This document shows, piece by piece, positions 7,070 to 42,554 of a DNA stretch of 64,000 nt; position 1 is the stretch's first letter, and each line of letters starts with the position of its first letter. A program made the position numbers and the translations under genes. The notes below the pieces were generated by a model. It was not told the DNA's origin. It did no database searches and saw only the letters and a program-made list of their open reading frames with translations. Origin of the DNA: an uncultured SAR116 cluster alpha proteobacterium (GTDB lineage Bacteria; Pseudomonadota; Alphaproteobacteria; Puniceispirillales; Marisalimonadaceae); contig CACJQK010000002.1 of assembly GCA_902595515.1 (NCBI GenBank), forward strand, positions 1 to 64,000, given 5' to 3'.

Positions 7070-7106
7070 AAACTTTCTCCTAAAAATTTTAAGTCCAAAA
7101 ACAATA

Positions 7107-26912: not shown

Positions 26913-26961
26913 ACCATGGACCATTGACCATTGTTGATTAGGAAAAGGGTGCAGCAACCTC
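26913..26961 (+). repeat. Dispersed repeat copy 1 (3' part only)
   Basis: Contains CCATGGACCATTGACCATTG then the core GTTGATTAGGAAAAGGGTG and CAGCAACC. The core recurs almost exactly at 36040 and 42331. The 5' part seen in the other copies is missing or diverged here. Confidence 0.8.
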
Positions 26962-27105
26962 AGTTAAAATTAGAATTTTCAATATAAAATTTTTGTTAAT
27001 TAATTATCTAATGATCATTATATTATAAAAATCAAATGATTAAAAGATGTTCACTTATAATATAAATTTAATAGTTTTTTAAAATAATTTCATTTTAATT
27101 TTATT

Positions 27106-27136
27106 AGAGCATACTCTGTAATACAGAGTATGCTCT
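27106..27136. repeat. Perfect 14-bp palindrome with 3-base loop
   Basis: AGAGCATACTCTGT, loop AAT, then ACAGAGTATGCTCT: a perfect 14-bp stem. No T-run follows on either strand, so it is not an ordinary terminator. A Shine-Dalgarno-like GGAAGGAGG follows at 27145-27153 but no start codon is placed after it. Could be a regulator site, an RNA hairpin or a mobile-element end. Confidence 0.75.
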
Positions 27137-27192
27137 CAAGCGGGGAAGGAGGATATTCTTTATATATTAACTATTTTGAAACTATATTGAAT

Positions 27193-27213
27193 CTCTGATT
27201 AATACATTCAGAG
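27193..27213 (+). promoter_or_regulatory. Possible LysR-type operator
   Basis: CTCTGA and TCAGAG form an inverted repeat separated by nine bases, about 50 bases before the LysR-type gene start. LysR proteins commonly bind such interrupted dyads near their own promoter. Position and symmetry are the only evidence. Confidence 0.35.
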
Positions 27214-27261
27214 TTGCATTAATTAGAATTGAAGAATTTCAAATATCAGAGATGTTTAAAT

Positions 27262-28149
27262 ATGAAATGGGATCGTTTAAAATATTTTCATATTGTTTCT
27301 CAAACTCTTAATTTGAAAAGAGCTTCTGAAATTATGAATATAAGTCATTCTTCCCTAAGCCGACAAATTAGTATTTTAGAAAGTGAAATTAAAACAAAAC
27401 TTTTTTTTCGAAATTCAAAAGGTTTGTCATTATCACCAGAAGGTCAGGAATTATATAAAGAAGTAAATAAAATTTCTTCACAAATTGAAAATTTAAGAAA
27501 CTTTTCTTGTTCATCCGAACCAATTGGAAAGCTAAAGATTGCTGCAACAAATGCTTTTGGCGCGCTTTGGATTACACCAAGGATAAATAAATTTTTATTA
27601 CAATATCCTAAAATACAAATTGCATTAAACTTAAGAGATTCTGAGCCTAAAGTTTTACACTACGCCTCTGACTTAGAAATTAGGATGACAGAAAGTAATT
27701 CACAAGATGACGTTCAAATCAAAATTTCAGAATTCCGATATAAAATATATGCTTCTAAAGAATATATAAAAAAATTTGGAGTTCCTAAAACAGTAGATGA
27801 ATTAGATTATCACAAAATAATTGCCTATGGAGAAACTGCTCAACCACCTCTAAACAGAAATAGATTAAATTGGTTGCTAAATATTGGAAGAGAAAAAAAT
27901 AATATTAGAAATCCAATATTAGAAATTTCAAATATTCACGGCATTGTAGAAGCTACTCAAAACTCGGTAGGTATATCTTCTTTACCTAGTTGGATGGAAA
28001 GTTTTATTAATTTAGAAGAAATATTATCTGAATTAAAGGGTCCAAAATTAAATATTTCATTATGTTATAAATATCATTTAAAAGATGACCAAAGATTAAA
28101 GGCTTTCAAAAAATTTTTGATTGACGAAATTGGCCAACTAAAAACTTAA
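27262..28149 (+). CDS. LysR-family transcriptional regulator
   Basis: Residues 1-60 are the winged helix: WDRLKYFHIVSQTLNLKRASEIMNISHSSLSRQISILE, with LFFRNSKGLSLSPEG at the wing. The rest, to residue 295, is the periplasmic-binding-type effector domain. The GcvA/alphaproteobacterial LTTR subgroup is likely from the FGALWI segment. ATG at 27262 is chosen over an upstream TTG at 27229 because homologs begin just before WDRLKYF. The gene converges on urtE and overlaps its 3' end by 12 bases; it may or may not control the urt operon. Confidence 0.88.
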   Translation: MKWDRLKYFHIVSQTLNLKRASEIMNISHSSLSRQISILESEIKTKLFFRNSKGLSLSPEGQELYKEVNKISSQIENLRNFSCSSEPIGKLKIAATNAFGALWITPRINKFLLQYPKIQIALNLRDSEPKVLHYASDLEIRMTESNSQDDVQIKISEFRYKIYASKEYIKKFGVPKTVDELDYHKIIAYGETAQPPLNRNRLNWLLNIGREKNNIRNPILEISNIHGIVEATQNSVGISSLPSWMESFINLEEILSELKGPKLNISLCYKYHLKDDQRLKAFKKFLIDEIGQLKT

Positions 28150-28833
28150 TTGAGATTTAAGTAATTTTTTACCTAGTTTTTCTTTATCTCCTTCTATAAT
28201 TATTTTCCCCCTTTGCATTACATAAAAATAATCAGAAAGATTAAATGCAAAATCAAAATATTGTTCGACTAAAAATATTGTAATTTTTTTTTCTTTTTTT
28301 AAATATAAGATTACCTCGCCTATTTGTTTAATTATATTCGGTTGAATACCCTCAGTAGGCTCATCCATCAATAATAAACTTGGTTTTGCAACAAGTGCTC
28401 TTGCAATAGCCAACTGTTGTTGTTGTCCTCCAGACAAATCTCCACCTCTCCTATGAAGCATTTTTTTTAATATTGGAAATAAGTTAAATATTTCATCAGG
28501 GATAAACCAATTTTTTTTATTCAAACATGCAAATCCAATTTCTAAATTTTCTTTAACACTTAAAAGGGGAAATATATCTCTTCCTTGAGGAACGTATCCA
28601 ATTCCTAATTTTGCCAGTTTGTAAGAAGGAAGATTAAATATATCATTGTTATTATAGAAATAAGTTCCATTTTTTGCATTTTGTATTCCAGACAAAAATT
28701 TAAGTAAAGAAGTTTTACCTACGCCATTTGATCCCATTAAGCATGTTATATTGCCTTTTTTGGCTTTTATTGAAACATCAAACAAGATTTGAGAAGAGCC
28801 ATAATTTAAATTTATTTTTTTAACATCAAGCAT
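28138..28833 (-). CDS. urtE: Urea ABC transporter ATP-binding protein UrtE
   Basis: ATPase of the branched-chain-amino-acid/urea transporter class (LivF-like), 231 residues. Walker A is GSNGVGKTS, the signature LSGGQQQQLAIARAL, Walker B LLLMDEPTEG, and QPNI follows. The double-Gln QQQQ and TEGIQPNIIKQIG are typical of UrtE. Last gene of the urt operon, two bases after UrtD. Confidence 0.9.
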   Translation of the reverse strand: MLDVKKINLNYGSSQILFDVSIKAKKGNITCLMGSNGVGKTSLLKFLSGIQNAKNGTYFYNNNDIFNLPSYKLAKLGIGYVPQGRDIFPLLSVKENLEIGFACLNKKNWFIPDEIFNLFPILKKMLHRRGGDLSGGQQQQLAIARALVAKPSLLLMDEPTEGIQPNIIKQIGEVILYLKKEKKITIFLVEQYFDFAFNLSDYFYVMQRGKIIIEGDKEKLGKKLLKSQLSF

Positions 28834-28835
28834 AA

Positions 28836-29576
28836 TTATCTTCCTAAATAAACCTCTATGACTTTTTCATTTTGAGTTATAAAGTCAATTGAACCAGAAG
28901 AAAGAATGCTACCTTCATTAAGTACTGTTACTCGACAATTTAAATTACGTACAAACTCCATATCATGTTCAACCACAATAATTGAACTAGATTTTGCAAT
29001 ATTTTTTAAAATACTAACTGTTTGATTTCTCTCAGTTGGTGTCATGCCTGCAGCAGGTTCATCAATGAGCATTAATTTTGGATTTTGGCTTAAAAGCATC
29101 CCAATCTCTAACCATTGCTTCTGACCATGGCTAATCTCACCAGCAATTCTATCTTTAATCATGTAAAGATTTATATCTTTTAAAATTTTTTCAATGCTTG
29201 TAAGCTCAGATTTTGTATTTTTTTGAAATAAAACCTTAAATGGATTTCTATTTTTTTTCTGAGATAAAATTAAATTATCAATAATTGTTTTATTTTCAAA
29301 TACCGTAGGTTTTTGAAATTTTCGTCCAATACCAAGTAATGCTATTTCTGATTCTGTTTTTCTGATTAGATCAATGCTTTTTTCTCCCCATAAAATATGT
29401 CCATTATCTGGCTTTGTTTGACCTGTAATTATATCCATAAAAGTAGTTTTCCCTGCGCCATTTGGTCCAATAATGGCTTGTAATTCATTATACCCTATTG
29501 AAAAACTTAAATTTTTTATTGCTTTAAAACCGTCAAAAGAGATTGAAACATTATCAACTTCTAACAACGTTTTCAT
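28836..29576 (-). CDS. urtD: Urea ABC transporter ATP-binding protein UrtD
   Basis: LivG-like ATPase of 246 residues: Walker A GPNGAGKTT, Q-loop GRKFQKPTVFE, signature ISHGQKQWLEIGMLL, Walker B LMLIDEPAAGM, and VVEHDMEFVRNL. The SHGQKQWLEIGM signature distinguishes UrtD from LivG. It overlaps the urtC stop by four bases (ATGA). Confidence 0.92.
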   Translation of the reverse strand: MKTLLEVDNVSISFDGFKAIKNLSFSIGYNELQAIIGPNGAGKTTFMDIITGQTKPDNGHILWGEKSIDLIRKTESEIALLGIGRKFQKPTVFENKTIIDNLILSQKKNRNPFKVLFQKNTKSELTSIEKILKDINLYMIKDRIAGEISHGQKQWLEIGMLLSQNPKLMLIDEPAAGMTPTERNQTVSILKNIAKSSSIIVVEHDMEFVRNLNCRVTVLNEGSILSSGSIDFITQNEKVIEVYLGR

Positions 29577-30742
29577 TTGATTTTAACCAATAATGTATTT
29601 AGCATACCAATTAAACCACCCTTACTAAAAATTGTTATTGCCACAAAACCAATTCCTAAAAATACAGTCCACCAATTCACCCATTCAATTGTAAAAAAAC
29701 CGAGGGGAATATTTGGAGCATTTCCTCCAGTAAACCAAGAGGATAGCAAAGAAACAGACGCTGCACCTAAAATTGCACCATACAATTTTCCTCGTCCACC
29801 AATAGCAACCCAGACAGCTAAATATATTGAGGCAATAGGAGCAATCTCAGCTGGGTTTATTATACCAGCTTGAGGATAATATATAGCTCCTGCTAATCCA
29901 GTAATTATGGCTGTGATAACAAATATAAAAAGTTTGTATATTTCTACATTGTATCCAAAAAAACGAAGACGCGTTTCATTGTCTCTGATAGCGGTAATTA
30001 CTGATCCAAATTTACTTTGAATTATATAATTAAAAATTACAAATGAAAATATAAGTCCGATTGAACTTAACCATAAAAATAATATTGAAATTGTAGATTG
30101 ACTTAAGTTTTCAAGATGAGGAATATTTTGCAATCCAGACAATCCGTTATTTCCTCTTAACCCGCTATCATTTTGAAATAGATATAAAGATAAAGCTAGA
30201 GTCATTGCTTGAGTCAAAATTGACAAATATACTCCAGTTACTCTTGAACGAAAAGCTAGCCAACCAAAAATAAATGCTATTAAACCAGGGATTAAAATAA
30301 CAAAAATTATTTGAAAATATAAATTATCTGCAAATGTCCAAATAAGTGGTATTTCTGTTCCTCCAACAACACCAAAAATTTGATTACCTATCGCTTCTTG
30401 TAATTCTATCTCAGTAAAGGGTAATTGTGAGTCATCTAAAGAATTCAATACAATAATAGACGTTCTCTCATACATTAACCACATGCCTATCATGTATCCA
30501 CCTAAGCCAAAAAAAGCAAAATGACCTAAGGATAAAATACCACAATACCCCCACACAACATCCATAGCAATTGCAGCAATACATAAGCAAAGAGTTTTTC
30601 CAAGGACTTTTACAAAGCTTGTTGATATAAAGTTTATACCAAAAGGTTCACTTAAAAAGGTGACTAACAACGTAAATAAAAAAATAGTTATTAAAAAAAT
30701 CAGCGAATGTTTTTTTACAGATTTATTCATGTCAGTTATCAT
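29573..30742 (-). CDS. urtC: Urea ABC transporter permease UrtC
   Basis: A 389-residue inner-membrane permease with about ten helices. CLCIAAIAMDVVWGYCGILSLGHFAFFGLGGYMIGMWL (residues 52-88) is the UrtC signature. Later AVWVAIGGRGKLYGAILGA is the conserved permease loop. Overlaps urtB by 11 bases and urtD by four. Forms the translocation pore with UrtB. Confidence 0.93.
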   Translation of the reverse strand: MITDMNKSVKKHSLIFLITIFLFTLLVTFLSEPFGINFISTSFVKVLGKTLCLCIAAIAMDVVWGYCGILSLGHFAFFGLGGYMIGMWLMYERTSIIVLNSLDDSQLPFTEIELQEAIGNQIFGVVGGTEIPLIWTFADNLYFQIIFVILIPGLIAFIFGWLAFRSRVTGVYLSILTQAMTLALSLYLFQNDSGLRGNNGLSGLQNIPHLENLSQSTISILFLWLSSIGLIFSFVIFNYIIQSKFGSVITAIRDNETRLRFFGYNVEIYKLFIFVITAIITGLAGAIYYPQAGIINPAEIAPIASIYLAVWVAIGGRGKLYGAILGAASVSLLSSWFTGGNAPNIPLGFFTIEWVNWWTVFLGIGFVAITIFSKGGLIGMLNTLLVKIK

Positions 30743-32744
30743 TTGCTGCTCTCCCTTTTAAGGCAATTAATCCCCTTGGTCTAAATTGAATAAATAAAAT
30801 TATAAATATAATCATATATGTTTGAGCAGCTAATGTATTTGAAGGATTAAACCATTCTATAAACTTTTGTAAAAAGCCAATTAATGAAGCGCCTGCAAGT
30901 GTACCCCAAATACTTCCTACACCACCAACTACAACTGTCATAAAACTTTGAACAATGTATTCTGAGCCAAGTTCAGATGTGACCTTGGAAAACAAACCTA
31001 TAGCAACACCAGCAACACCAGCAATGCCTGACCCAAAACCAAAAGTTAACATATTTATTTTTTCAGTGTTAACACCCATGTTCGATGCCATTACAGGGTT
31101 TTGAGTTACGGATCTAGTTTCTAATCCAAATCTAGTTTTTTTCATTACAAATAATAATATTAAAAAAAATAAAACTCCCAAAACAAATATAGCTATCCTA
31201 ATGTAACTTATCGAAAGATCATCATTTATTATTAAAGATCCATCTAACCAAGAAGGTGATGTTAAAGGTCTAGCCTGGGTACCAAAAATATTTTTAGCAA
31301 GTTGTTGAAGAGCTATACTTATACCAAAAGTTGCTAGCAAAGTATCAAGAGGATTTTTATATAAATGTTTTATCACCAACCTTTCCATTATAACCCCTGC
31401 AATAAAAGTAATTATAAAAGCGAGAGGAAAAGCTATTATCAGAGATAATGTATGATTAGTAATATATGATTGAACAACATAGCCAGTATATGCTCCCATC
31501 ATTATAAATTCACCGTGAGCCATATTAATCACACGCATGACTCCAAATGTTATTGCCAAGCCAATAGCACCAAGAAAATATATAGAACTAAGACTAAGAC
31601 CATCAATAAATAAATCTAAATACTTATAGAATTTAACTTTAAAATTAATTGAATCTAAAACTTGTTTAGTCTTGTTTGTTATGTATTTATTTTTCTCAAT
31701 GTAAATTTTGTAAAAATGTAGTTGTTTTAAATCATTTAATAATTCTGTTTCATCTCGATAAATATTAAGATTTTTTATCTTGGCTAATTTATTATAAACT
31801 TCGATTCTTTTAGAATTTTTATTAAATTCCTTTATATCAATTCCTAAAATTTTATTGTCAACAATGTTATTTTCTAAAATTAATTTTAATTCATTTAAAC
31901 TGACTCTCTTATCTAAAAATCCATTTTTTTGTGCTATTTTGTAAGCATCAATAACACTAAGTTTTAATTTTTCTTTATAGAAAAAACTTTTTATAACTTC
32001 ACCGAATTGTTTTTTACTAATTACTTCTGGTTTAATTATTTGAGCAATATTTAAATTATTTAAATCTTCAATATTTCTAGTAACTTTAATTTCAGATGTC
32101 CTTAGGAGTTTTGACAAAACTGCTCTTACTTCTATTGAAGTATTAGTCTTTAATTCATTCAGAACTTTAATTTTCTCTTTATCGTCAGTTCCATGTTGTA
32201 AAATTGCAAATTGTAATAATTTTTTTATTTTAATTTTTAACCTATCATCTTCCTCTAATAAAAATGCTTTTCTAAGGAGTTTTAAATGTTCAGGTAATAT
32301 TTTTTTTTCAAGAGCATTTATGCTATTTATTCTTTTATTTTTATCATTACTAAATATTTGAAAGTTCACAAGTGCAGTTGCAATCTTTGCCCTTACACCA
32401 CTATTCGGTTTTATTTTTTTGAAATCTTTTTTTTTCTTTTTTCCAATTTTAGCGTTGGAAAAAATATCAATTGCGTAATATGTTTTATTATCAAACTTGG
32501 AAATTAGTACAATTTTTTTTGTTTCTTTTATGTAAAATAATTTCTTATTTTTCCAGAGATTTAAAAATCTTGATACGGTATTTTGATCATAAACATTTAT
32601 TTTTTCTAAAAATGTTCCAACTGTTTTTGAAGAACTATTTATAATCAGTTTAGAGTTTTTAAATAAAAAATTGTCAAAGTTCTCTTCTGAAAATGCAGAA
32701 TTGAAACTTAATAATGAAAATAAAATAATTAATAAGTACTTCAT
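30732..32744 (-). CDS. urtB: Urea ABC transporter permease UrtB with long N-terminal extension
   Basis: At 670 residues it is longer than most UrtB. A signal-like helix (YLLIILFSLLSFNSAFS, residues 3-19) is followed by about 350 residues of Lys/Asn-rich, repeat-like helical sequence presumed periplasmic. The permease domain starts near residue 385 (GLSLSSIYFLGAIGLAITFGVMRVINMAHGEFIMMGAY) and carries eight or nine helices, ending with the GVGSIWGTLAGA loop. The extension resembles the HEAT-like region seen in other UrtB proteins. Confidence 0.92.
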   Translation of the reverse strand: MKYLLIILFSLLSFNSAFSEENFDNFLFKNSKLIINSSSKTVGTFLEKINVYDQNTVSRFLNLWKNKKLFYIKETKKIVLISKFDNKTYYAIDIFSNAKIGKKKKKDFKKIKPNSGVRAKIATALVNFQIFSNDKNKRINSINALEKKILPEHLKLLRKAFLLEEDDRLKIKIKKLLQFAILQHGTDDKEKIKVLNELKTNTSIEVRAVLSKLLRTSEIKVTRNIEDLNNLNIAQIIKPEVISKKQFGEVIKSFFYKEKLKLSVIDAYKIAQKNGFLDKRVSLNELKLILENNIVDNKILGIDIKEFNKNSKRIEVYNKLAKIKNLNIYRDETELLNDLKQLHFYKIYIEKNKYITNKTKQVLDSINFKVKFYKYLDLFIDGLSLSSIYFLGAIGLAITFGVMRVINMAHGEFIMMGAYTGYVVQSYITNHTLSLIIAFPLAFIITFIAGVIMERLVIKHLYKNPLDTLLATFGISIALQQLAKNIFGTQARPLTSPSWLDGSLIINDDLSISYIRIAIFVLGVLFFLILLFVMKKTRFGLETRSVTQNPVMASNMGVNTEKINMLTFGFGSGIAGVAGVAIGLFSKVTSELGSEYIVQSFMTVVVGGVGSIWGTLAGASLIGFLQKFIEWFNPSNTLAAQTYMIIFIILFIQFRPRGLIALKGRAANDN

Positions 32745-32755
32745 AAATTAATATT

Positions 32756-32784
32756 GATAATGCTATGGAAACCATAGCATTATC
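32756..32784 (-). promoter_or_regulatory. Hairpin between urtA and urtB
   Basis: GATAATGCTATGG, loop AAA, CCATAGCATTATC: a perfect 13-bp stem between urtA and urtB, with no long T-run. Such hairpins after a binding-protein gene usually stabilise its mRNA or partly terminate, raising the UrtA level over the membrane parts. Confidence 0.75.
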
Positions 32785-32799
32785 CTCAATATAGTTTAT

Positions 32800-34071
32800 C
32801 TAATAATTTGACTTGAGTTGAATACAAGTATTTGTCTTAGTATTGTACATACCACAACCAAGGGACTTCCAATCAGATTTTAAAACAGCAGATTCAGGTA
32901 AATGATCTGTCCATGCATCTCCTGGCACTTCCTTAGTTTGACTTATAATGTCAAACTGGCCATTTTCCAATATTTCACCAATTAAGACAGGCTTAGATAA
33001 ATGATGATTTGGCAACATTTCAGCCGTACCACCAGTCAAGTTTGGAACTTTAATACCATACATAGCTTTTCTAACAGCATCAACATCTGTAGTTCCGGCC
33101 TTTTCAACGGCCTTAACATACATGTTAAATCCAATAACGTGAGCTTCCATAGGATCGTTTGTAACTCTTTTATTTCCCATTGTAGCTTTCCAATCTTTTA
33201 TAAAACTTGAATTAAGATCAGATTCAGCTGACTGAAAATAATTCCATGCTGCTAAGTGACCAACTAAATTTGTTGTATCTAATCCAGATAATTCTTCTTC
33301 ACCAACTGAAAAGGCAACTACCGGGATATCATCTGCTTTAACACCTGCAGCAGCTAACTCTTTATAAAATCCAATATTAGCATCTCCATTAATGGTAGAA
33401 ATAACTCCAACTTTTTTACCATCAGCTCCTAAAGAAACTACATCTGAAACAATTTTAGACCAATCAGAATGTCCAAATGGAGTATAATTTACAAAAATAT
33501 CACTTTCTGGTATTCCTTTATCTATAAGATATTGTTTCAAGATTTTATTAGTTGTTCTAGGATATACGTAGTCAGTTCCTAATAAAGCAAACTTTTTAAC
33601 ATCAAGCTCTTCTAAATAATAATCTGTTGCTGGGATAGCCTGCTGATTTGGAGCTGCGCCTGTATAGAAAACATTTTTAGAGCTCTCTTCTCCTTCATAT
33701 TGTACTGGATAAAAAAGTAAACCGTTTAACTCTTCTAGAACTGGTAGTGCAGATTTTCTTGAGACAGAAGTCCAACACCCAAATAAAACATCAACTTTTT
33801 GAACTGTTAAAAGTTCTCTCGCTTTTTCAGCAAATAAGGGCCAATTTGAGGCGGGATCAACAACTACGGGCTCTATTTTTCTACCTAAGATGCCACCTTT
33901 TTTGTTTTGTTGTTCAATTAACATCAACATTGTATCTTTTAATGTAGTTTCTGAAATAGCCATTGTTCCAGATAATGAATGTAAAATTCCAATTTTTATT
34001 GGCTTCTTATGTCCATCTGCAAAACCTAGACTGCTAAAACATAAAAACAATATAGTAATTAATAATCTCAT
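32800..34071 (-). CDS. urtA: Urea ABC transporter substrate-binding protein UrtA
   Basis: A signal peptide (LLITILFLCFSSLGFA, residues 3-18) opens this 423-residue periplasmic binding protein. The mature part has IKIGILHSLSGTMAISE, KGGILGRKIEPVVVDPASNW, LFGCWTSVSRKSALPV and AWNYFQS, all UrtA landmarks (distinct from amide-binding FmdD or LivJ by GCWTS and the Cys at the C-terminus). First gene of urtABCDE; no urease genes are seen in the window. Confidence 0.93.
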   Translation of the reverse strand: MRLLITILFLCFSSLGFADGHKKPIKIGILHSLSGTMAISETTLKDTMLMLIEQQNKKGGILGRKIEPVVVDPASNWPLFAEKARELLTVQKVDVLFGCWTSVSRKSALPVLEELNGLLFYPVQYEGEESSKNVFYTGAAPNQQAIPATDYYLEELDVKKFALLGTDYVYPRTTNKILKQYLIDKGIPESDIFVNYTPFGHSDWSKIVSDVVSLGADGKKVGVISTINGDANIGFYKELAAAGVKADDIPVVAFSVGEEELSGLDTTNLVGHLAAWNYFQSAESDLNSSFIKDWKATMGNKRVTNDPMEAHVIGFNMYVKAVEKAGTTDVDAVRKAMYGIKVPNLTGGTAEMLPNHHLSKPVLIGEILENGQFDIISQTKEVPGDAWTDHLPESAVLKSDWKSLGCGMYNTKTNTCIQLKSNY

Positions 34072-34511
34072 AATATTTCACCTTTCTCGAATTAAATAAG
34101 AACAGTAAATATTGATGAGTTATTTTTATGAATTGCAAATATTAGAACCCACGTCTGTTGAGATTTGAAATTTAAATTTTATTCAATTATATCAATAATT
34201 TGAAATTCAATTAAAATTAGTCCAATTTGAAATTGATTATTTTTTGGTCAAATTTAATTTAAAATAAATTGCTAATTATTTATAATTGGATTTTGATTGT
34301 ACAGAAAATTTGTAATTTAAAATTAACTTATAGTTTACTAAATCAATCTTATTTCAAACCCATCATTGAACCCTGGTCCGAGTTCTATGGACTACGGTCA
34401 TTATAATTTAAAATGCACAAAAAAATATCATTGTAATGAAACCTTAATAAAAAACTTTGATTATCAATATATTTAGTTTCTAATTTTAATATATTTAATG
34501 AGGAGGTAAAA
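34072..34511. other. Intergenic region between divergent urtA and 34512 genes
   Basis: Very AT-rich. It must hold the urtA promoter, but I see no convincing sigma-54 (TGGCAC-N5-TTGC) match. It also holds the partial repeat at 34357 and the strong ribosome site of the gene at 34512. Confidence 0.5.
34357..34401 (+). repeat. Dispersed repeat copy 2 (5' part only)
   Basis: Reads AACCCATCATTGAACCCTGG, then TCCGAGTTCTATGGACTACG and GTCA, matching the 5' half of the copy at 42331 with only a few differences. The GTTGATTAGGAAAAGGGTG half is absent. Confidence 0.78.
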
Positions 34512-35129
34512 TTGACTATCATTTCAAGACGGATATTAACGCCAATTCTAGGTAAAAGTGATTTAGTATTTAAGAGGGCTAAATCTTTACAAGAAATAAT
34601 GTCCAACCATGGTGCAAAGGCTAGAGTTGCAAGAATAGTTGCAGGTGATTTAGCGGGATCAATTCATTTAACCGCATCATATGAAAACATGGAAAAGGGC
34701 TGTAATTCATTTAACGAAATGTCACAAGATCCAGCTAGAATTGCTTTGATGAAAGAAAGAGAAGCTGATCCTGGAGGTCACTTAATAGGTCCTGAAGTTT
34801 TTAGAACAATATATGGTAATATTTCACCTGAGCATAATGTAATTATGATGAGGGAATATCAGTTATCTAGAGATAATATGTCTGAAGCTGTTCAAATATT
34901 TCCTGAAATAGATGCTATTTTAAAAGATGAGGACGCTTCTTTTATGGCAGTTGTACCCTTGTTAGCAACGAACATGGACAGATTAATTGCTTGTTATTAT
35001 TTTCGTGATATGTCCTCTATGGGAGAACAAATTGATAGAGTTGGTATGTCAGAAGAATTTCAAAAAATTGTTTTAAAAGCAAGTAATGCTGGAACATTAA
35101 TATCATCAAGGGTGTTATTAAATATATAA
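34512..35129 (+). CDS. Hypothetical protein, possibly a duplicated alpha-beta barrel domain
   Basis: A 205-residue protein started by TTG at 34512 with a strong AGGAGG five bases upstream. The two halves look related: VARIVAGDLAGSIHLTASYENM in the first and VVPLLATNMDRLIACYYFRDM in the second each resemble a strand-helix-strand of NIPSNAP/ABM type small barrels. No catalytic motif identified and I cannot name the family. It heads a run of three small plus-strand genes of the same general kind. Confidence 0.6.
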   Translation: MTIISRRILTPILGKSDLVFKRAKSLQEIMSNHGAKARVARIVAGDLAGSIHLTASYENMEKGCNSFNEMSQDPARIALMKEREADPGGHLIGPEVFRTIYGNISPEHNVIMMREYQLSRDNMSEAVQIFPEIDAILKDEDASFMAVVPLLATNMDRLIACYYFRDMSSMGEQIDRVGMSEEFQKIVLKASNAGTLISSRVLLNI

Positions 35130-35193
35130 TAAATAGCTATTATTTTAAATCTAGAAGAATAACATTTACTTATAATAAATAGGAGTAGTTTAA

Positions 35194-35568
35194 ATGTCAG
35201 AAGAAATAAGATGTATTAATTTAGGATATGTGGTTCCGAAAGAGAGTGCAGAAAAAGTTGAAAGTATTTTTAAAAAACACGCATCCTGGATGGAAGAGTT
35301 TTATTCAGAAAATAACAATGGTCAGGAGCACCTTTTAAATTCTTATTTCACTAAAGCACCTGAATTTGTTGATCCAACTGATCCCTCAAAGGGCGAAACT
35401 GGAAATATAGTTTTCACTATCAATGAAAGATTTACTTCATTAGAAAGTGTTCAACGTCATATAGAAAATGCTATGAAAAATGATTATTTTGAAGACTTTG
35501 GTAATATACTTCACGATTATGGAAAAGTTATTAGTCCTGGAGGTATGATTTATCACTCAATAAGGTGA
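35194..35568 (+). CDS. Small hypothetical protein of the dimeric barrel type
   Basis: A 124-residue protein with AGGAG ten bases before the ATG. Starts with a strand (RCINLGYVVPKE), then a helix with SWMEEFY and a stretch TKAPEFVDPTDPSKGETGNIV, then INERFTSLESVQRHIENAM. The pattern fits ferredoxin-like barrels acting on small ligands, but no function can be assigned. It lies 64 bases after the preceding gene. Confidence 0.55.
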   Translation: MSEEIRCINLGYVVPKESAEKVESIFKKHASWMEEFYSENNNGQEHLLNSYFTKAPEFVDPTDPSKGETGNIVFTINERFTSLESVQRHIENAMKNDYFEDFGNILHDYGKVISPGGMIYHSIR

Positions 35569-35634
35569 GACATTTACTGTAATAAAAAAATTTAAAGAAT
35601 AAACATATTAAAAAAATATTAAAGGAATAAGATA

Positions 35635-35895
35635 ATGGATGTTTTTTTTGTAGCAAAATTTACTTGTAGTTATAACGAATGGAAGTCAGTTTATGATGGA
35701 GATTTAGAACTAAGAAAACAATTTATGAAAGATGACATAGTTGGGAAAGTTGATGAAAACACTGCAATGATAAAAGCAACGATAACCGACCCTGAAAAAA
35801 TGGAAAAGATAATGTCAGAAAGAATACCAGAAATAGCGCCTAAACTTGGACTAGAACATGAGATGTATACTTTGACTAAAATGGATAATAATTAA
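35635..35895 (+). CDS. 86-residue protein, intact paralog of the 21941 pseudogene
   Basis: A short acidic protein: MDVFFVAKFTCSYNEWKSVY, then DGDLELRKQFMKDDIVG and MIKATITDPEKMEKIMSERI, ending TLTKMDNN. It looks like a DUF3303-type or ABM-like small barrel. A gene of identical length, with three in-frame stops, is found at 21941-22201 on the other strand. AAAGGAATAAG gives a ribosome site just upstream. Role unknown; its two neighbours upstream have a similar size and style. Confidence 0.7.
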   Translation: MDVFFVAKFTCSYNEWKSVYDGDLELRKQFMKDDIVGKVDENTAMIKATITDPEKMEKIMSERIPEIAPKLGLEHEMYTLTKMDNN

Positions 35896-36039
35896 ACATA
35901 ACAAAATAGTGAATAGAAGTTACAATCAAGGTATATTGTATTTGAATGTATAATTAGCTTAAATATTAAACATTTTATTTAGAAACGTTTATCTTTAATT
36001 TCAAACAAATTTACCTAACAGTAATCTTACCAACGTAAC

Positions 36040-36136
36040 TACCAACTCCAATCCATGCTCCATGGACTACGGTCAATGGGCAGGCCATCCACTAACAATT
36101 GACCGTTGTTGATTAGGAAAAGGGTGCAGTAACACC
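36040..36136 (+). repeat. Dispersed repeat copy 3
   Basis: Contains CCATGCTCCATGGACTACGG, then TCAATGGGCAGGCCATCC, and the core GTTGATTAGGAAAAGGGTG with CAGTAACACC. Within it GGTCAAT and ATTGACC make a perfect 7-bp inverted repeat around a 20-base loop. It is followed at 36166 by TGTGGGA and then by the integrase remnant. Confidence 0.82.
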
Positions 36137-36200
36137 TTACTTTAGAAATTTCTTGTTGGACAGTTTGTGGGATAAGATTGTCAGTCCCTTATTTAATTGA

Positions 36201-36368
36201 TTAAAATTAATAACTTATGGATTACTTTGGCTGTCTAAAAATAAATTACCTATATCAGCTATCAAAAAATTAAAAGCTCCTGGTAAATATAGTGATGGAA
36301 ATAAACCTTATCTTACAATTTATGAAGTGTCACAAAAGTTTCATAATTTTTTTCTTGCTTATTACTAA
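36201..36368 (+). pseudogene. Tyrosine integrase N-terminal remnant (DUF4102-like)
   Basis: The frame reads LPISAIKKLKAPGKYSDGNK and PYLTIYE, the arm-type DNA-binding domain start seen in P4-like integrases (KxPGKYxDGxGLYL). It ends at a TAA at 36366-36368 after about 55 codons, with no catalytic Arg/His/Tyr domain. No start codon with ribosome site is clear. A relic of an excised or decayed mobile element. Confidence 0.72.
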
Positions 36369-36414
36369 TAATCGATTTCAAAATATATATTTAATTATGG
36401 ATTAGGAGATTGTG

Positions 36415-37050
36415 ATGACACCATGGGAAATAAAAGGAAGAGAACTAGCCAATTGTAACTGTGCATATGGTTGCCCCTGCCAATTTAATGCCTTACCCAC
36501 TCATGGAACATGTGAGGCGGCTGTTGGATATGAAATTGATAATGGCCATTATGGAAATATTAAACTTGATGGACTGCGTGTCTCGGCTACCTATAAATGG
36601 CCAGGTGCGGTGCACGAAGGAAACGGGGAATATCAGATTTTCATAGATGTAAATGCTACTCCGGAACAGCGTGACGCCATTGAGAAAATAGTAACAGGTG
36701 AAGACACTGAAGAAATGGCCACAATGTGGTGGATATTTAATGCAATGTGTACCAAACGTCATCCTACCGAATATAAAAAAATTAATACAGAAATAGACGT
36801 AGAAAATCGATTGGGCAGTGTGGTAGTAGATGGCACTTTAAATATCAAAGGGGAACCTATAAAAAATCCCGTAACAGGTGCAGAACATCGAGCAAGAATA
36901 GATCTTCCTGATGGATTTGAGTATAAAATAGCGGAAATGGGTAGCGCATCAACTATCACTACCGCTGGAGAAATAACTTTAACGAATAATAAAGATAGTT
37001 ATGCTCAGTTCGCCGAATTGCATTTAAACAACTCAGGGGTCATAAGGTAA
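36415..37050 (+). CDS. DUF1326 domain-containing protein
   Basis: A 211-residue protein. The N-terminus has GRELANCNCAYGCPCQFNALP, a cysteine-rich motif typical of DUF1326, and later HRARIDLPDGFEYKIAEMG. Probably a metal-handling protein; the family is nearly always followed by DUF2182 as here. ATG at 36415 is chosen (the GTG one codon earlier is possible) with GGAG upstream. The gene is distinctly GC-richer than the surroundings (for instance about 45% in the stretch 36601-36660), a sign of transfer. Confidence 0.87.
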   Translation: MTPWEIKGRELANCNCAYGCPCQFNALPTHGTCEAAVGYEIDNGHYGNIKLDGLRVSATYKWPGAVHEGNGEYQIFIDVNATPEQRDAIEKIVTGEDTEEMATMWWIFNAMCTKRHPTEYKKINTEIDVENRLGSVVVDGTLNIKGEPIKNPVTGAEHRARIDLPDGFEYKIAEMGSASTITTAGEITLTNNKDSYAQFAELHLNNSGVIR

Positions 37051-37085
37051 ACAGAATTCCTAATAGGACGTGAGCAAAGCTTTTA

Positions 37086-37940
37086 ATGCGGAATAATAAT
37101 AATAATACTGTCAATCTGACTTCTCTTGAATCACTTGTCCAGAGGGACAAAATAATAACGATTATCGCTATTGCTATTTTAGTAGCATCGACTTTCATAT
37201 ATACAGTCTTGGGTGTAGGAATGAATATGTCGGCTATTGAAATGACACCTGGTCTAGATAAATCACTGATGTCTATGCCAAACATGAGTACCATTAAAAG
37301 CATGGCTATGAAACCTGCTATATGGAATTTCAATTATAGTGTTTTAATGTTTTTTATGTGGTGGATGATGATGATAACAATGATGCTACCTAGTGCTGCC
37401 CCAATGATACTTCTCTACACAGCGCTTATAAGGAAAACACAAAAAGCTCGAAATATTTTCAATGTCGTTTCTTTTTTTATTTGTGGATATTTATTAGCGT
37501 GGGCTATTTTCAGTGTTTTTGCTACGAGTATTCAATCAATTCTTGAACTTCAGGGGTTGATGTCTCCTATGATGATGGAGGCTACAAATACTTATTTGTC
37601 AGTAGGTATACTTATAGCAGCTGGAGTTTATCAACTTTCACCTTTAAAAACGGTGTGTTTGGAAAAATGCCGCCAACCTGCGAGCTTTCTGTCTGATTAC
37701 AAAAACACTTGGGTTGATTCCCCATTACGAATTGGTCTCGTGCATGGTTTTTATTGTGTCGGATGCTGTTGGTTTTTAATGGGATTACTTTTCTTTGGTG
37801 GCATTATGAATTTATATTGGATTGTCGGTCTTATAATCTTTGTTGCTGTGGAAAAACTGCATGAAAAAGGTGCAATATTTGGAAAAATTTTGGGATGCTG
37901 CGCTATACTCTTAGGTCTAGCATTTTTGTTTCACTCGTAG
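37086..37940 (+). CDS. DUF2182 integral membrane protein
   Basis: A 284-residue membrane protein with about seven helices. It has the Met-rich MFFMWWMMMITMMLPSAAPM segment, a ThiW-like Cys cluster (GFYCVGCCWFLMGLLFFGGIM) and a downstream VCLEKCRQP. These features match the predicted metal-binding DUF2182 family (possibly copper or another soft metal). It lies 35 bases after the DUF1326 gene and shares its richer GC, so the pair moved together. Confidence 0.87.
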   Translation: MRNNNNNTVNLTSLESLVQRDKIITIIAIAILVASTFIYTVLGVGMNMSAIEMTPGLDKSLMSMPNMSTIKSMAMKPAIWNFNYSVLMFFMWWMMMITMMLPSAAPMILLYTALIRKTQKARNIFNVVSFFICGYLLAWAIFSVFATSIQSILELQGLMSPMMMEATNTYLSVGILIAAGVYQLSPLKTVCLEKCRQPASFLSDYKNTWVDSPLRIGLVHGFYCVGCCWFLMGLLFFGGIMNLYWIVGLIIFVAVEKLHEKGAIFGKILGCCAILLGLAFLFHS

Positions 37941-38101
37941 CCATACATTAAATTAGCTTAACAACTTTTTTAAATTTACTTTTCATAGATATTTAAAATT
38001 CCCTTTAATACATGAATTTTCAATAAAGATACTAAAAAGTAATTAAATATAAATTATTATAGTTGATTAAAACTAAATAACTAGTTATATAGTTTATTAT
38101 T

Positions 38102-38398
38102 ATGATTGATAATGTGGTTGCTGCAAAAGGATTTAACGCTGTTGGTTCAAAGTCTAGATTAATTGTTTTAACAGAGCTGGTTAAAGTTGGTTCAAATGGA
38201 CTAACAATTGGAGAAATTCAAGAATTAGTTAACATCCCCCTTTCAACTCTGGCTCATCATCTCGATCATCTAAAAAAAGCAAATCTTATTCACCAAGAAA
38301 AAAAAGGGAGATCAACTTATAACTTTGCACAATTCAACCATATTCAACAATTGACAGACTACCTTCTTAAAGAATGCTGTGTAAATGAGAGAAAATAA
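38102..38398 (+). CDS. ArsR/SmtB-type winged-helix regulator
   Basis: A 98-residue repressor-type protein. The winged helix has TIGEIQELVNIPLSTLAHHLDHLKKANLI (residues 38-66) with the RSTYNF wing, and ends CCVNERK: a Cys pair that may bind thiophilic metal. It overlaps the next start by one base (TAATG), so it is cotranscribed with the permease it likely controls. Confidence 0.85.
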   Translation: MIDNVVAAKGFNAVGSKSRLIVLTELVKVGSNGLTIGEIQELVNIPLSTLAHHLDHLKKANLIHQEKKGRSTYNFAQFNHIQQLTDYLLKECCVNERK

Positions 38399-39438
38399 TG
38401 AAAGCTCTAATTTTAAAAAATATCAACATAGAAAATTTTAATTTTAAATCAGTTTGGACTATAGTTTTGTTAATACCATTATTGGTATTCATTTTGATTC
38501 CAGAGGATTTTAGCCCAATTATTACTTTTGCATCGAAAGCTTTGATGGGAACTATCCCTTTTATATTATTTGCAGTTAGTTTGGTAGCTTATTTAAAAGC
38601 AAGTGGTGCTGAAAGTTTAGTTTCAAAAGCTTTTAAAGGTAAAGAAGTTAGAACTATTTTTATTGCAACTCTTGTTGGTGGACTTGCTCCTTTTTGTTCA
38701 TGTGAAGTTATCCCATTTATAGCAAGTATGCTTGCTTTAGGTGTCCCACTTTCAGCTGTAATGGCTTTCTGGTTGTCATCTCCATTAATTGATCCTCCAG
38801 CATTATTAATCACTGCAAGTGCATTAAGTTGGGATTATGCTATTGCAAAAACACTTTCTGCTTTGGCAATTGGATTAATTGGTGGTTTTGGTATTTATTT
38901 TTTATCAAAATTTGGAATGTTCTCTCATCCATTAAAACAGCAAAACAAAAATAGTTGTGGATCTTGTTGTGGTACTACAGACCCTTTTAACCAAGATCTT
39001 GAATTAAAATTTTGGAATAAAACTGAAAGAATAAATATATTTAAAGAAGAATTCACATCAAATGGATTATTTCTATTGAAATGGCTATCTCTGGCTTATC
39101 TAATTGAAGCATTAATGGTTCAATACCTATCAGCACAAGTTATAGGAAATTTCTTGTCTGGTGACGGATTCTCTTCAATTATAATTGGTGCGTTTGCTGG
39201 GGTACCAGCTTATTTAAATTCATATGCAGCCCCTGCAATTGTATCTGGACTAATCGAACAAGGGTTAAGTTCAGGAGGTGCTATGGCATTCTTAGTTGGT
39301 GGCGCAATCAGTTCTATTCCTGCAATGACTGCCGTTTGGTCTTTAGTTAACCGTTCAACATTTATTGCTTATCTTGTATTTGGTTTTGGTGGGGCTATTT
39401 TATGTGGAATAGCTTTTCAAAGTTATATGAATATTTAA
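38398..39438 (+). CDS. Permease (DUF318/UPF0718 type), probable metal or metalloid efflux
   Basis: A 346-residue protein with ten or so helices. Signature PFCSCEVIPFIASMLALGVPLSAVMAFWLSSPLIDPPA (about residues 98-135) is characteristic of the PF03773 permease family, some of which act as arsenical exporters. A Cys-rich cytoplasmic loop (NSCGSCCGTT, near 185) probably binds metal. The second repeat has GVPAYLNSYAAPAI. Directly coupled to the ArsR gene. Confidence 0.85.
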   Translation: MKALILKNINIENFNFKSVWTIVLLIPLLVFILIPEDFSPIITFASKALMGTIPFILFAVSLVAYLKASGAESLVSKAFKGKEVRTIFIATLVGGLAPFCSCEVIPFIASMLALGVPLSAVMAFWLSSPLIDPPALLITASALSWDYAIAKTLSALAIGLIGGFGIYFLSKFGMFSHPLKQQNKNSCGSCCGTTDPFNQDLELKFWNKTERINIFKEEFTSNGLFLLKWLSLAYLIEALMVQYLSAQVIGNFLSGDGFSSIIIGAFAGVPAYLNSYAAPAIVSGLIEQGLSSGGAMAFLVGGAISSIPAMTAVWSLVNRSTFIAYLVFGFGGAILCGIAFQSYMNI

Positions 39439-39757
39439 ATACTATTTTTTGTATTTTTTTTGATGAAAGATACGAAATTATTGCAAATATATATGGTAAA
39501 AAAAAAGTTGAAATTTATCACAACAAACCATTATCAATAATTCAAATTTTACATCAAAATTTTGAAAATTTTCACATTCTTGTAACACTTATACGTATAA
39601 TATAAATTAATAATCTTTATAAATTAAATGGGTTGATTTTAAGTAAATATTTTAAGTAATTTAATTGAGTGATAAATATTTATATTGAACAATTTTTTAC
39701 CTTATACATAATCATAGAATGAAGTATTATATTTAAGTTATTTTGAAAGGTGTTTTT
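39439..39757. other. Interval after the permease with no gene seen
   Basis: AT-rich, stops in all frames, no RNA gene or terminator clearly recognised. The ribosome site GAAAGGTG of the next gene is at its end. Confidence 0.4.
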
Positions 39758-40579
39758 ATGGAACTTGCTCCAGTACCATTTAACGAAAATGAAAGAGTCA
39801 AAACCGTTATTAAAACTGGATTAATTGACTCTCCTAACTCAGAGATGTTTCAAGTTTACTGCGATCTAGCTAAAGATTTGACTGGTTTCCAAAGTGCTAC
39901 ATTCAGTCTGTATGATGGAAATAATCAATGTAGTATTTCTTCATCCGGTAGAGATGAATTTGTATCGGGTTCAATAAGTGACAAGGGCGTAAATAATATT
40001 TGTGCTTACGTGTTGCTTGATACCGAACCACTTTTAATGCCTGACCTTAGAAAGGATCCTATTTGGAAGAATCATCCAAAAATCTTAAATGGCACAGCCA
40101 CAACGCTAGGATATGCTGGTTTTCCTGTAATAAATAAAGATAATTATGCACTAGGGACATTATGTATGAAACATCCCAAGCCTAGAGAATTATCTCAAAA
40201 ACAAATAGAGTTGGTAAAAAAGATCACTTCAAATATGGCTCATTTACTTGACTTACATATTGAGCAAAAGGAACTTACATCAAATAAAGTTTTAGAAATA
40301 ATAAATATTTTTAAACAAAAATTTCCAGGTTTTACAATTAGTGATCTTGAGGCATTTTTATCTTTGGCAGCAAACTTTGATATTTTAGAAATCAATGCTT
40401 CTAATTTATTGAGATATAATTTATGTAAAAAAAACACAAATAGTTCTTTTAGTTTATCTCATTTAGGAAGAAAACTATTAGAAGATATGGAGCTTAAACC
40501 CAAAAATATGAAAAAAATCAAAATTAAAGGTCGTGAAGCAGATAATAAAATTGAAGAATTATTGTCTGAGATTAACTAA
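39758..40579 (+). CDS. GAF domain-containing protein
   Basis: Residues 1-165 form a GAF domain: FQVYCDLAKDLTGFQSATFSLYD, NNICAYVLLDTEPLLMPDLRKDPIWKNHP, and GYAGFPVINKDNYALGTLCM, the last being the typical GTLC end. The remaining residues are helical with no kinase or cyclase domain. Cys in NICAYV might serve as a sensor, but that is inference. I start at ATG 39758; a TTG at 39743 is also in frame but GAAAGGTG fits the ATG. It abuts the next ATG exactly (stop ends at 40579, start at 40580). Confidence 0.8.
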   Translation: MELAPVPFNENERVKTVIKTGLIDSPNSEMFQVYCDLAKDLTGFQSATFSLYDGNNQCSISSSGRDEFVSGSISDKGVNNICAYVLLDTEPLLMPDLRKDPIWKNHPKILNGTATTLGYAGFPVINKDNYALGTLCMKHPKPRELSQKQIELVKKITSNMAHLLDLHIEQKELTSNKVLEIINIFKQKFPGFTISDLEAFLSLAANFDILEINASNLLRYNLCKKNTNSSFSLSHLGRKLLEDMELKPKNMKKIKIKGREADNKIEELLSEIN

Positions 40580-40909
40580 ATGTTTGCAAAAATATATAAT
40601 TTAAAGTTTTCTGGTGTATCTGAAGCGAAGGTCGCTTCTTCTTTTTGTTCCGATAATCTGGGCAAAAGAATTTCTAAATACAATATTAGATCGCTAAACA
40701 TTTCTATTGGTTCATGTGGTAGTTTATCAATAAGTATTAGATTTCAAACAGGTGCTGACTTAAATAAATTTGATAATGACGCTACATCAATTTTTAAAGA
40801 TTTAAAAGCCTCATTTACATTCAAAGAAAATCAGTACTCGGGTGTTTTTGTTTACAATTATGAGTCAGAGCCAATATCAGCTGAAATTTCAGTTAATTCT
40901 AAGATGTAA
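40580..40909 (+). CDS. Small hypothetical partner of the GAF protein
   Basis: A 109-residue protein with no recognisable domain. Starts on the base following the GAF gene stop, a spacing that implies translational coupling. Sequence is beta-rich with a central GSCGSLSISIRFQTGAD. No signal or membrane helix. Possible effector or regulator of the GAF sensor. Confidence 0.65.
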   Translation: MFAKIYNLKFSGVSEAKVASSFCSDNLGKRISKYNIRSLNISIGSCGSLSISIRFQTGADLNKFDNDATSIFKDLKASFTFKENQYSGVFVYNYESEPISAEISVNSKM

Positions 40910-41068
40910 GATAGCTACACTTTAGAGTAATGCTATGTTAGTAAAAATAATAAGAATGAGAGGCTAGAATTATATTTTTGCATAAATGCGATATTTTTGT
41001 ATGATTTATTATAATTTCGAAAACGGTATTTATAAATTTCAAATCTAAACAAAAAATCTTTGTCATTT

Positions 41069-42271
41069 ATGTTATTTGATTGGGCTACCTCTCCAATACC
41101 AACTATTCATACCACTTTTATTTTTTCTGTGTACTTTGTAAATTCAATTGCAGATAACTCTGGAAGTTTTTATTGGGGACTTATTATTGGTATTGCTGGT
41201 GTTTTAACAGCTTTCCTTGGTCCTTTATTAGGAAGTTTTTCAGATAAAAAAGGGATTAGAAAAAAAACTCTATTTATTTTGGTTTTAATAGGTTTTTTAG
41301 CTACTAGCCTTTTATGGTTTGCAAAACCAAACGAAAAATATTTTCTATACGCAATAGTTTTTTCATTTTTATCTATCTTATCGATGGAATTAATTTTTGT
41401 CTCATATAATTCACTATTAAAAAAGGTTTCAGATAAAAATGATTATGGAAAAATTTCAGGTTTATCATGGTGTTCAGGCTATATTGGTGGTATCTCAGCT
41501 TTAATAATTTGTTTAGTTTTATTTATATTTCCTACTGAATTACCTTTTAATATCTCAAAAGATCAAGGTGGTGATGTTAGAAGTTGTATGGTTTTTATTT
41601 CAATATGGTTAGTCATATTTAGTATACCTATTTTTTTATATGTAGAAGAGCCAAAAAAAAATGTGACTCAAAAAAATACTATAAATTATTTAATTGAAGG
41701 ATTTAAGATTATAGTTAAGAACAAAACACTACTTAGGTATTTCGTTGCAAGAGTTTTTTATTTTGATGCATTAGTAACAATTTTTGCCTTTGGCGGTATC
41801 TACGCATCTAAGGTATTTAATTTCTCTCAAACTGAAATATTATATTTTGCAATTTTAATTAATATTTCTGCTGCCCTAGGAGCTTTTTTAGGTGGGTTTT
41901 TTGATGATAAATTCAGTCCTTTTAAAGTAATAAAGATTTCAATTTTAGGGATTATTTTTTCTGGTATTATTCTACTTTTAATTAATGATAAAAATTTATT
42001 TTGGCTGGTAAGCTTTTCATTGGGAATTTTTATTGGTCCATTACAATCATCGAGTAGGGTGCTATTAACAAAAATAATACCTGAAGAAAGGGGAGGCCAA
42101 TTTTTTGGCTTTGCAATCTTTTCAGGTAAAGTAACTAGTTTTTTAGGTCCTTTAATTTATGGTATTATCGCCACATCATTAAATAGTCAAAAATTTGCAA
42201 TGACATTCGTCATTCTACTCTTCATAATTTCAATTGTTTTAATTGGAAATAAAGAACCTGATAAGATTTAA
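41069..42271 (+). CDS. MFS transporter, UMF1/Atg22-like family
   Basis: About 400 residues and 11-12 membrane helices. The start LFDWATSPIPTIHTTFIF matches UMF1 proteins (DWAxS motif); LGSFSDKKGIRKKTLF is the MFS loop between helices 2 and 3; GPLQSSSRVLLTKIIPEERGGQFFGF is the second half signature. Probably an exporter; substrate unknown. ATG at 41069 preferred to a TTG at 41060. Confidence 0.87.
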   Translation: MLFDWATSPIPTIHTTFIFSVYFVNSIADNSGSFYWGLIIGIAGVLTAFLGPLLGSFSDKKGIRKKTLFILVLIGFLATSLLWFAKPNEKYFLYAIVFSFLSILSMELIFVSYNSLLKKVSDKNDYGKISGLSWCSGYIGGISALIICLVLFIFPTELPFNISKDQGGDVRSCMVFISIWLVIFSIPIFLYVEEPKKNVTQKNTINYLIEGFKIIVKNKTLLRYFVARVFYFDALVTIFAFGGIYASKVFNFSQTEILYFAILINISAALGAFLGGFFDDKFSPFKVIKISILGIIFSGIILLLINDKNLFWLVSFSLGIFIGPLQSSSRVLLTKIIPEERGGQFFGFAIFSGKVTSFLGPLIYGIIATSLNSQKFAMTFVILLFIISIVLIGNKEPDKI

Positions 42272-42330
42272 GCCAAAAATTGGATTAAATATAATGGTGA
42301 TATACTAACGATCATCGTTCTTATTTTGAG

Positions 42331-42449
42331 CACCAACGCCACCAACCCATCAATGAACCCTGGTCCGTGTTCCATGGACTACGGTCAATGGGCAGACCAC
42401 CCCCTGACCATTAATCAATGTTGATTAGGAAAAGGGTGCAGTAACCCCC
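42331..42449 (+). repeat. Dispersed repeat copy 4 (longest)
   Basis: The most complete copy: ACCCATCAATGAACCCTGGT, CCGTGTTCCATGGACTACGG, TCAATGGGCAGACCACCCCC, a TGACCATT stretch, then GTTGATTAGGAAAAGGGTGC and AGTAACCCCC. Internal inverted repeats include TGGTC/GACCA and GGTCA/TGACC, so the transcript could fold. Clearly GC-richer than the flanks. It lies about 110 bases from the 3' end of tRNA-Ser. Confidence 0.85.
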
Positions 42450-42480
42450 AACAATATTTGAGTTTAAGATTACACTTTAT

Positions 42481-42500
42481 TGTGGGTAGATTTGTGGGTA
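42481..42500 (+). repeat. TGTGGGTA direct repeat pair, possible integrase arm sites
   Basis: Two exact TGTGGGTA copies, 12 bases apart, between repeat copy 4 and the tRNA-Ser 3' end. Direct repeats of this kind flank att sites of P4-type integrases that use tRNA genes; a TGTGGGA also precedes the integrase remnant at 36201. Confidence 0.5.
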
Positions 42501-42554
42501 AAAAATATGTTAAATATAAAAATATAATAATATCAATATATTAAATACATATTA

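Follow-up and report, generated by a model that had tools for sequence, protein, structure and literature searches.

The repeat family and its setting

The stretch of DNA analyzed here, referred to as the window, encompasses 64,000 nucleotides from an uncultured SAR116 cluster alphaproteobacterium (contig CACJQK010000002.1, positions 1 to 64,000) and harbors four copies of a short dispersed repeat that we call REP. Read from left to right, the window holds the REP copy at 26914, LysR-like and transporter genes, the copy at 34351, three small genes, the copy at 36015, a block of cargo genes, the copy at 42330 and, finally, the gene for tRNA-Ser(GGA) (Table 1). The transporter genes 3' of the 26914 copy read as a probable urea uptake set, and the three small genes between the 34351 and 36015 copies match no Pfam family. 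The attachment module at the tRNA-Ser(GGA) gene looks intact, and the REP copy there ends an island.

Table 1. Repeat copies, attachment features and cargo in the window.
Feature	Positions	Strand	Basis or remark
REP copy, right part only (model 77-127)	26914-26964	+	left flank in conserved cluster L3; LysR/ABC-transporter segment 3'
REP copy, left part only (model 14-63)	34351-34400	+	cut at GGACTACGGTCA, then segment R3
REP, full copy	36015-36139	+	model match
Decayed attachment module, tRNA-Ser(TGA) type	36153-36233	+	comparison with L193
Arm-like TTGTTGGACA and TTTGTGGGATAAG	36153-36176	+	in decayed tRNA-Ser(TGA)-type module
Core-side remnant ACTTTGGCTG	36224-36233	+	in decayed tRNA-Ser(TGA)-type module
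Cargo of right-most unit	36412-42271	+	Pfam: DUF1326, PpoB2 copper chaperone, ArsP_1 permease, GAF protein
Transporter, by reading	41060-42271	+	last cargo gene; joined to other right ends in relatives
REP, full copy, best of window	42330-42451	+	model match and BLAST query region
Paired arm-like direct repeats TTGTGGGTA	42480-42488, 42492-42500	+	sequence
IHF-like site TATCAATATATTA	42531-42543	+	likeness to IHF consensus
Attachment core TGGCGGAGAGG, 3' end of tRNA-Ser gene	42555-42565		sequence match
tRNA-Ser(GGA), target gene	42555-42644	-	about 104 bp from the last REP copy

An earlier note on this DNA had described a GC-rich family of four dispersed, intergenic copies that are partial in different ways, and this description holds. 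The copies have a G+C content of 0.46-0.51, compared with 0.27-0.30 in the 500-bp flanks, and two of them are full whereas the other two retain only the right or the left part. The core GTTGATTAGGAAAAGGGTG has exact matches at 26933, 36108 and 42420, with no other site in the window within three substitutions; the exact sequences CCTGGTCCG (34372 and 42359) and ATGGACTACGGTCA (34387, 36062 and 42374) were likewise located by a search of the window. A BLAST search with the 42331-42449 copy against the assembly from which the window derives (1.87 Mb, 80% complete) returned these four places only (E <= 1), with E values of 4e-57 to 1e-9, all on the plus strand. All copies lie between the larger open reading frames (ORFs) of the window, one being overlapped by a spurious-looking 73-residue frame (34385-34606), and single-base length changes within a run of C in REP argue against a coding frame. 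What the earlier note missed is that REP copies lie at the ends of tRNA-targeted integrative elements, the last copy of the window being about 104 bp from the tRNA-Ser gene.

The same note had also suggested a structured RNA or DNA element on account of inverted repeats. The consensus holds a perfect GGTCAATGG/CCATTGACC pair, whereas the copy at 42 kb has an imperfect version of it (CCATTAATC). Of the note's reading, a dispersed DNA element holds good and a structured RNA lacks support. Internal inverted repeats and intergenic copies would suit a structured RNA or a small miniature transposon, and two copies folded on both strands gave z-scores of -0.4 to -2.2; the strongest of these folds, on one strand of the 36-kb copy, was matched by only 3 of 200 shuffles. 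Folding is otherwise weak, however. RNAalifold on 60 sequences (62 references less 2) showed almost no covariation, with a double change in one of 11 consensus pairs, and Rfam gave no match at gathering scores and weak matches only at a lax threshold (best E 0.1). A structured RNA was rejected as having little support. As for a miniature transposon, the copies sit at attachment modules rather than at random places, and their left boundary is fuzzy while the right is sharp; no systematic search was made for terminal inverted repeats or target duplications. We regard either possibility as very improbable.

REP and the adjoining attachment modules

A REP model built from 27 copies gave 145 matches in the collected loci, of which 141 at E <= 1e-6 represent 95 unique sites. 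REP is around 130 bp in length with a conserved core of around 72 bp; its right boundary is sharp, directly after CAGTAAC, and its left boundary fades. The DNA 3' of REP holds, in order, paired direct repeats of about 9 bases that resemble integrase arm sites, an IHF-like site and a piece of a tRNA gene, with 22-41 bp between REP and the arm-like repeats. IHF-like sites were called by likeness to the IHF consensus WATCAANNNNTTR. In relatives, elements end in the same core TGGCGGAGAGG with unrelated DNA after it. REP is therefore no free-standing repeat: adjoined by arms, an IHF-like site and a tRNA 3' end copy, it is a marker of the right end in cargo elements that use a tyrosine integrase and target tRNA genes.

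The attachment modules, as set by sequence, fall into three classes, with some right-flank clusters left unassigned. In the first, to which 42480-42565 of the window belongs, TTGTGGGTA arms accompany a core formed by the 3' end of tRNA-Ser (GGA or GCT). The second has TGTAGACAA arms and the core TCTCGAGCGCACCA, the last 14 bases of tRNA-Arg(ACG); the copy of this core measures 14 bases in L106 and in four of five further loci checked, and 10 bases in the fifth. The third class combines GTGGGACAA arms with a core formed by the 3' end of tRNA-Ser(TGA). In a fourth arrangement REP is found about 20 bases from one half of a tRNA-Met. One and the same REP is therefore common to at least three attachment modules, those of tRNA-Arg, tRNA-Ser GGA/GCT and tRNA-Ser TGA.

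Because the loci were mostly fetched for holding REP, searching in reverse, with the attachment modules as queries, provides a less biased view of this association. With the tRNA-Arg module, 39 rows were obtained. In 22 of these the match covers part of the arm module, and 19 of the 22 abut REP while the other three start within 13 bases of a contig end; the remaining 17 match only the last 41 bases of the query, which are the tRNA-Arg 3' end and the DNA that follows it. With the tRNA-Ser module, 24 of 30 rows abut REP and the other six match only from base 26 onwards. REP has one orientation relative to the modules, and the spacing from its end to the first arm is characteristic of the class, being 22 bp in 14/14, 24-25 bp in 12/12 and 35-41 bp in 23/23 REP-bearing modules, counted in loci with the same bias of collection. 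Arm pairs lacking REP numbered 18 and were, by reading, 12 left-end arms, two unrelated pairs, one unclear pair, an unassigned pair in L199 and right-end arms in L132 and L196.

Complete elements and a possible unoccupied site

Two elements could be resolved in full, and both have the layout tRNA (attL), integrase, cargo, REP, two arm-like repeats, IHF-like site and copy of the tRNA 3' end (attR). The first, in locus L193, is around 9.7 kb in size. It begins at a tRNA-Ser(TGA) gene (5930-6019) and has REP at 15524-15646, followed by the arm pair, IHF-like site and core copy; the tRNA end and the core copy have 17 bases in common, as judged by eye. The integrase gene (6116-7375) encodes the Pfam domains Arm-DNA-bind_3, Phage_int_M and Phage_integrase, and its start overlaps a GTGGGACAA arm pair; the same kind of pair recurs next to REP. 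What remains of a second integrase gene lies 3' of the element, which places L193 in a tandem array. The second element, in L194, is L193-like and about 6.7 kb long, with a diverged REP as well as a truncated inner one. Its integrase, identified by reading of the ORFs, is next to the tRNA, and its border copies agree in 9 bases exactly or in 14 with one mismatch.

A search for unoccupied sites gave 21 rows, comprising two occupied elements, one genome designated G027, and 18 without such a tRNA core in the fetched stretch. G027 has the same tRNA, with 114 bp between it and the matched flank of the bounding gene of L194; the 6.7-kb insert present in G026 is missing there, and the junction sequence differs.

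Of the eight L193 proteins run against Pfam, three have no family and five do (the integrase, an ADP-ribosylglycohydrolase, an HhH-GPD protein and two C5 methylases), and none of these five is a capsid, relaxase or replication protein. Such a gene content raises the possibility that REP is a transfer signal near the attachment end, such as a cos or pac site that a helper phage recognizes, or an origin of transfer or replication, and that the cargo elements are moved in trans as phage satellites are. REP is indeed directional, non-coding and common to elements with different attachment modules. Nevertheless, three REP patterns gave no exact match in viral contigs, in which a tRNA-pattern control did match, and no REP was found in phage or plasmid records, so that no packaging signal in common with a helper phage was seen in collections that may not sample the helpers. 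One arm pattern likewise had no match in the viral contigs. With respect to conjugation, the coupling protein family PF02534 is present in none of 58 genomes of the host family, most of which are incomplete, compared with three of 14 control genomes, and this argues against conjugation; relaxases were not searched, and helpers may lie outside these genomes. We judge a transfer signal rather unlikely.

Exchange of cargo and attachment modules across REP

The flanks of REP are extensively shuffled. Among the 95 unique sites, 16 of the 17 left-flank clusters with several sites meet at least two right-flank clusters, and conversely 11 of the 13 multi-site clusters on the right meet at least two on the left, the single-linkage clustering used here being one that may over-merge. 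The last cargo gene of the window illustrates the point: this transporter is joined via REP to a tRNA-Ser module here, to a tRNA-Arg module in L054, and in L045 and L086 to a right end from which an integrase lies some 1 kb distant. The window's 26914 copy has its left flank in common with L044, whose right flank is that of the window's 36015 copy, and segment R3, which lies 3' of the 34351 copy, follows other left flanks in relatives. Neighboring REP copies have the same orientation in 38 of 39 pairs.

Arrays of same-orientation repeats with shuffled flanks are also what would be expected if REP were an integron-like (attC-like) site at which a dedicated integrase cuts in a single position, with the window as a cassette array. 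Linkage along REP, however, does not place the crossovers at a single point. In 65 near-full copies of the 95 sites, with positions counted from CCAACCCATC, the excess identity of pairs that have only the left flank in common (n=43) is gone by position 32, that of pairs with only the right flank in common (n=302) is seen from position 104 on, and between these positions both are at most 0.08. By eye, L013, L027 and L028, which belong to one left-flank cluster and have two kinds of right flank, carry common rare alleles to near the right end of REP, as does L069 from another left cluster, while L011, L024 and L026, with a common right flank, have rare alleles in common leftwards across most of the repeat. 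Crossovers at different positions fit homologous exchange inside REP and do not fit single-site cutting. Moreover, the attC core motif of integrons is GTTRRRY, which the REP core does not fit, and the integrase of L193, the only one from a complete REP element that was run, is of the phage type with an arm domain; a model of the integron integrase was not searched. The integron-like site was rejected on the basis of the spread crossovers and, by eye, the absence of GTTRRRY, and we now consider it highly unlikely.

Truncated REP copies such as those at 26914 and 34351 resemble scars left where elements fused, the former being either such a scar or a truncated copy. As a separate observation, a 330-residue integrase is represented by one and the same 3'-terminal fragment of about 46 codons just to the left of REP in L009, L016, L074, L075, L195 and L207, as if one fusion event had spread.

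The proposed role of REP

We favor, with rather more confidence than doubt, the view that the right end of the small integrative elements with which SAR116-type bacteria carry cargo holds, in REP, a conserved non-coding DNA that acts in cis and also serves as the joint at which elements are swapped. In this view REP would be part of the attP region or ride with it, and a factor common to these elements would bind it, most likely to control excision or the direction of integration. The case for excision control comes mainly from the closeness and spacing of REP to the arms. Because REP is DNA common to elements with different integration addresses, homologous exchange inside it would allow cargo to change its address, presumably leaving behind tandem arrays with truncated REP scars such as those in the window.

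One argument for a function is conservation. Among REP-bearing tRNA-Ser rows with a module identity of 80% or less (n=10), REP is better conserved than the module in nine and equally conserved in one. Conservation above that of the module, fixed orientation and use across attachment classes together point to a cis role common to the elements. If REP were instead an inherited piece of an ancestral attachment region without a function of its own, spread by descent and homologous recombination, the constant spacing within classes would follow, as would the common alleles that point to crossovers at several positions. Such passive inheritance is hard to reconcile with the nine diverged cases above and with the use of one REP beside modules with different arms, and we judge it unlikely.

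Several observations nonetheless weigh against the view favored here. Six of the 30 tRNA-Ser module matches have no adjoining REP; two of them were read, one having lost arms and REP to cargo and the other belonging to another arm class. The right-end arms in L132 and L196, of one class, and possibly those in L199, of another, also lack REP, and together with the six tRNA-Ser modules they indicate that REP may be dispensable for integration. REP is absent from other tRNA-Arg elements whose integrase and arms differ (L106, L110 and L117), and the tRNA-Met sites have no arms between REP and the core. The distance from REP to the arms differs from class to class, and common descent by itself could account for its constancy inside each class. 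The candidate unoccupied site is based on one genome, G027, of the 21 rows. Finally, no REP-binding factor was identified. The 40 largest of 336 ORF clusters near REP consist of integrases, chromosomal neighbors of tRNA sites, presumed cargo and one small HGG-motif protein.

A more far-reaching version, possible but less likely than not, is that REP acts as a universal docking end, where one factor encoded by the host or a helper reads REP in all the elements and controls their excision or transfer jointly despite their different integrases and tRNA targets, while exchange within REP allows any cargo to swap its address. Were this the case, genes would flow among streamlined ocean bacteria through a system of interchangeable ends.

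Distribution of REP

The conditions that the earlier note set for its own refutation did not refute it: further copies in relatives are plentiful, and the length changes noted above argue against a coding frame, while no dedicated library of IS ends was searched. Of the 58 genomes of the host family, which are SAR116-type marine alphaproteobacteria, 45 carry REP (E <= 0.001), among them all six with a completeness of 90% or more and a contamination of 5% or less. Across the order, at E <= 1e-6, it is present in 45 of 136 genomes, every one of them in the host family, with none in the 78 genomes of other families. In a class-wide draw of 385 genomes, 21 core bases with up to two mismatches match only the window's own genome, the sole member of the family in the draw. 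The 26-base core followed by CAGYAAC occurs in 40 public genome stretches, of which 28 are labeled SAR116 and single matches are labeled Kordiimonadaceae and Hellea.

Concerted evolution of the copies inside genomes was considered and rejected, as copies from the same genome are no more alike (identity 0.873, 70 pairs) than copies from different genomes (0.879, 1645 pairs); the observed value was reached by 317 of 500 shuffles of the genome labels, which are partly uncertain.

Other features of the window and of its tRNA sites

In the window's own unit at tRNA-Ser(GGA) no integrase was seen, and the other end of this island was not found; the left ends of the window's elements could not be placed. 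A protein search for the 320-330-residue integrase type gave no match in the window, and PF00589 has three matches in the genome, both of the two listed being on other contigs. Upstream of the first REP copy, 26445-26831 (minus strand) encodes a small basic protein with an HGGASTGP motif that has no Pfam family and a weak PHROG match (E 6e-4); its relatives, a cluster of 14 ORFs of which 11 are distinct, adjoin REP arrays.

Other element families are associated with the same tRNA genes. A second family at tRNA-Arg(ACG) is characterized by an integrase of 315-327 residues, TTTGACACAG arms, a tRNA copy of about 66 bases and no REP (L106, L110 and L117), and by integrase and tRNA it also includes L111, L112, L116 and L118. 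This integrase was considered as the owner of REP and rejected, since it has arms of its own, a longer tRNA copy and no REP. At the tRNA-Ser(GGA) site of other genomes (L136, L148, L150 and L159), the neighboring DNA has a different, CTGGGTAC-like arm pair, which suggests that several element families may compete for this gene. Integrase genes of the 320-330-residue type in L092, L104, L105, L108 and L121 end in sequence like the anticodon arm of tRNA-Met, and their starts lie some 100 bases away from part of a different tRNA.

Comparison with known systems

How abundant, streamlined ocean bacteria gain and swap cargo genes without recognizable conjugation genes is an open question. Tycheposons are described from Prochlorococcus and also from Methylophilaceae, with sizes of 4-200 kb, and like the REP elements they carry cargo at tRNA genes of marine streamlined hosts and employ a tyrosine recombinase (PMC10872708). 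The REP elements of 9.7 and 6.7 kb come within this range (PMC10872708), and by the tRNA border, the copy of the tRNA 3' end and the integrase next to the tRNA in L193 and L194 they would class as tycheposon-like. In contrast, a conserved non-coding end sequence across tRNA targets is not met in the portion of the tycheposon account available to us (PMC10872708). Nor was REP found described in the literature on tycheposons or on SAR116 islands and integrases, as far as partial texts go, the founding tycheposon and VEIME papers being outside this scope.

Phage satellites, such as PICMI (PMC10803314, available in part) and VEIME (known through citing papers), are likewise integrated islands of small size that have an integrase but few further mobility genes. 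They differ in that PICMI integrates downstream of fis (PMC10803314) rather than at tRNA genes, and no REP was found in the viral, phage or plasmid collections searched. Integrative and mobilizable elements that carry only an oriT (PMC11389934) resemble the REP elements in that mobility could rest on a short DNA signal, whereas none of the PF02534 coupling proteins was found in the 58 genomes of the host family.

Integron cassette arrays, like REP arrays, hold cargo between repeats in the same orientation, but the repeat sequence, crossover positions and integrase type are different.

An end sequence that is found family-wide provides a handle with which to find elements that have lost their integrase, to mark their ends and to trace the exchange of cargo between tRNA addresses, and it leads one to expect a trans-acting factor common to the elements, for which a direct search is possible.

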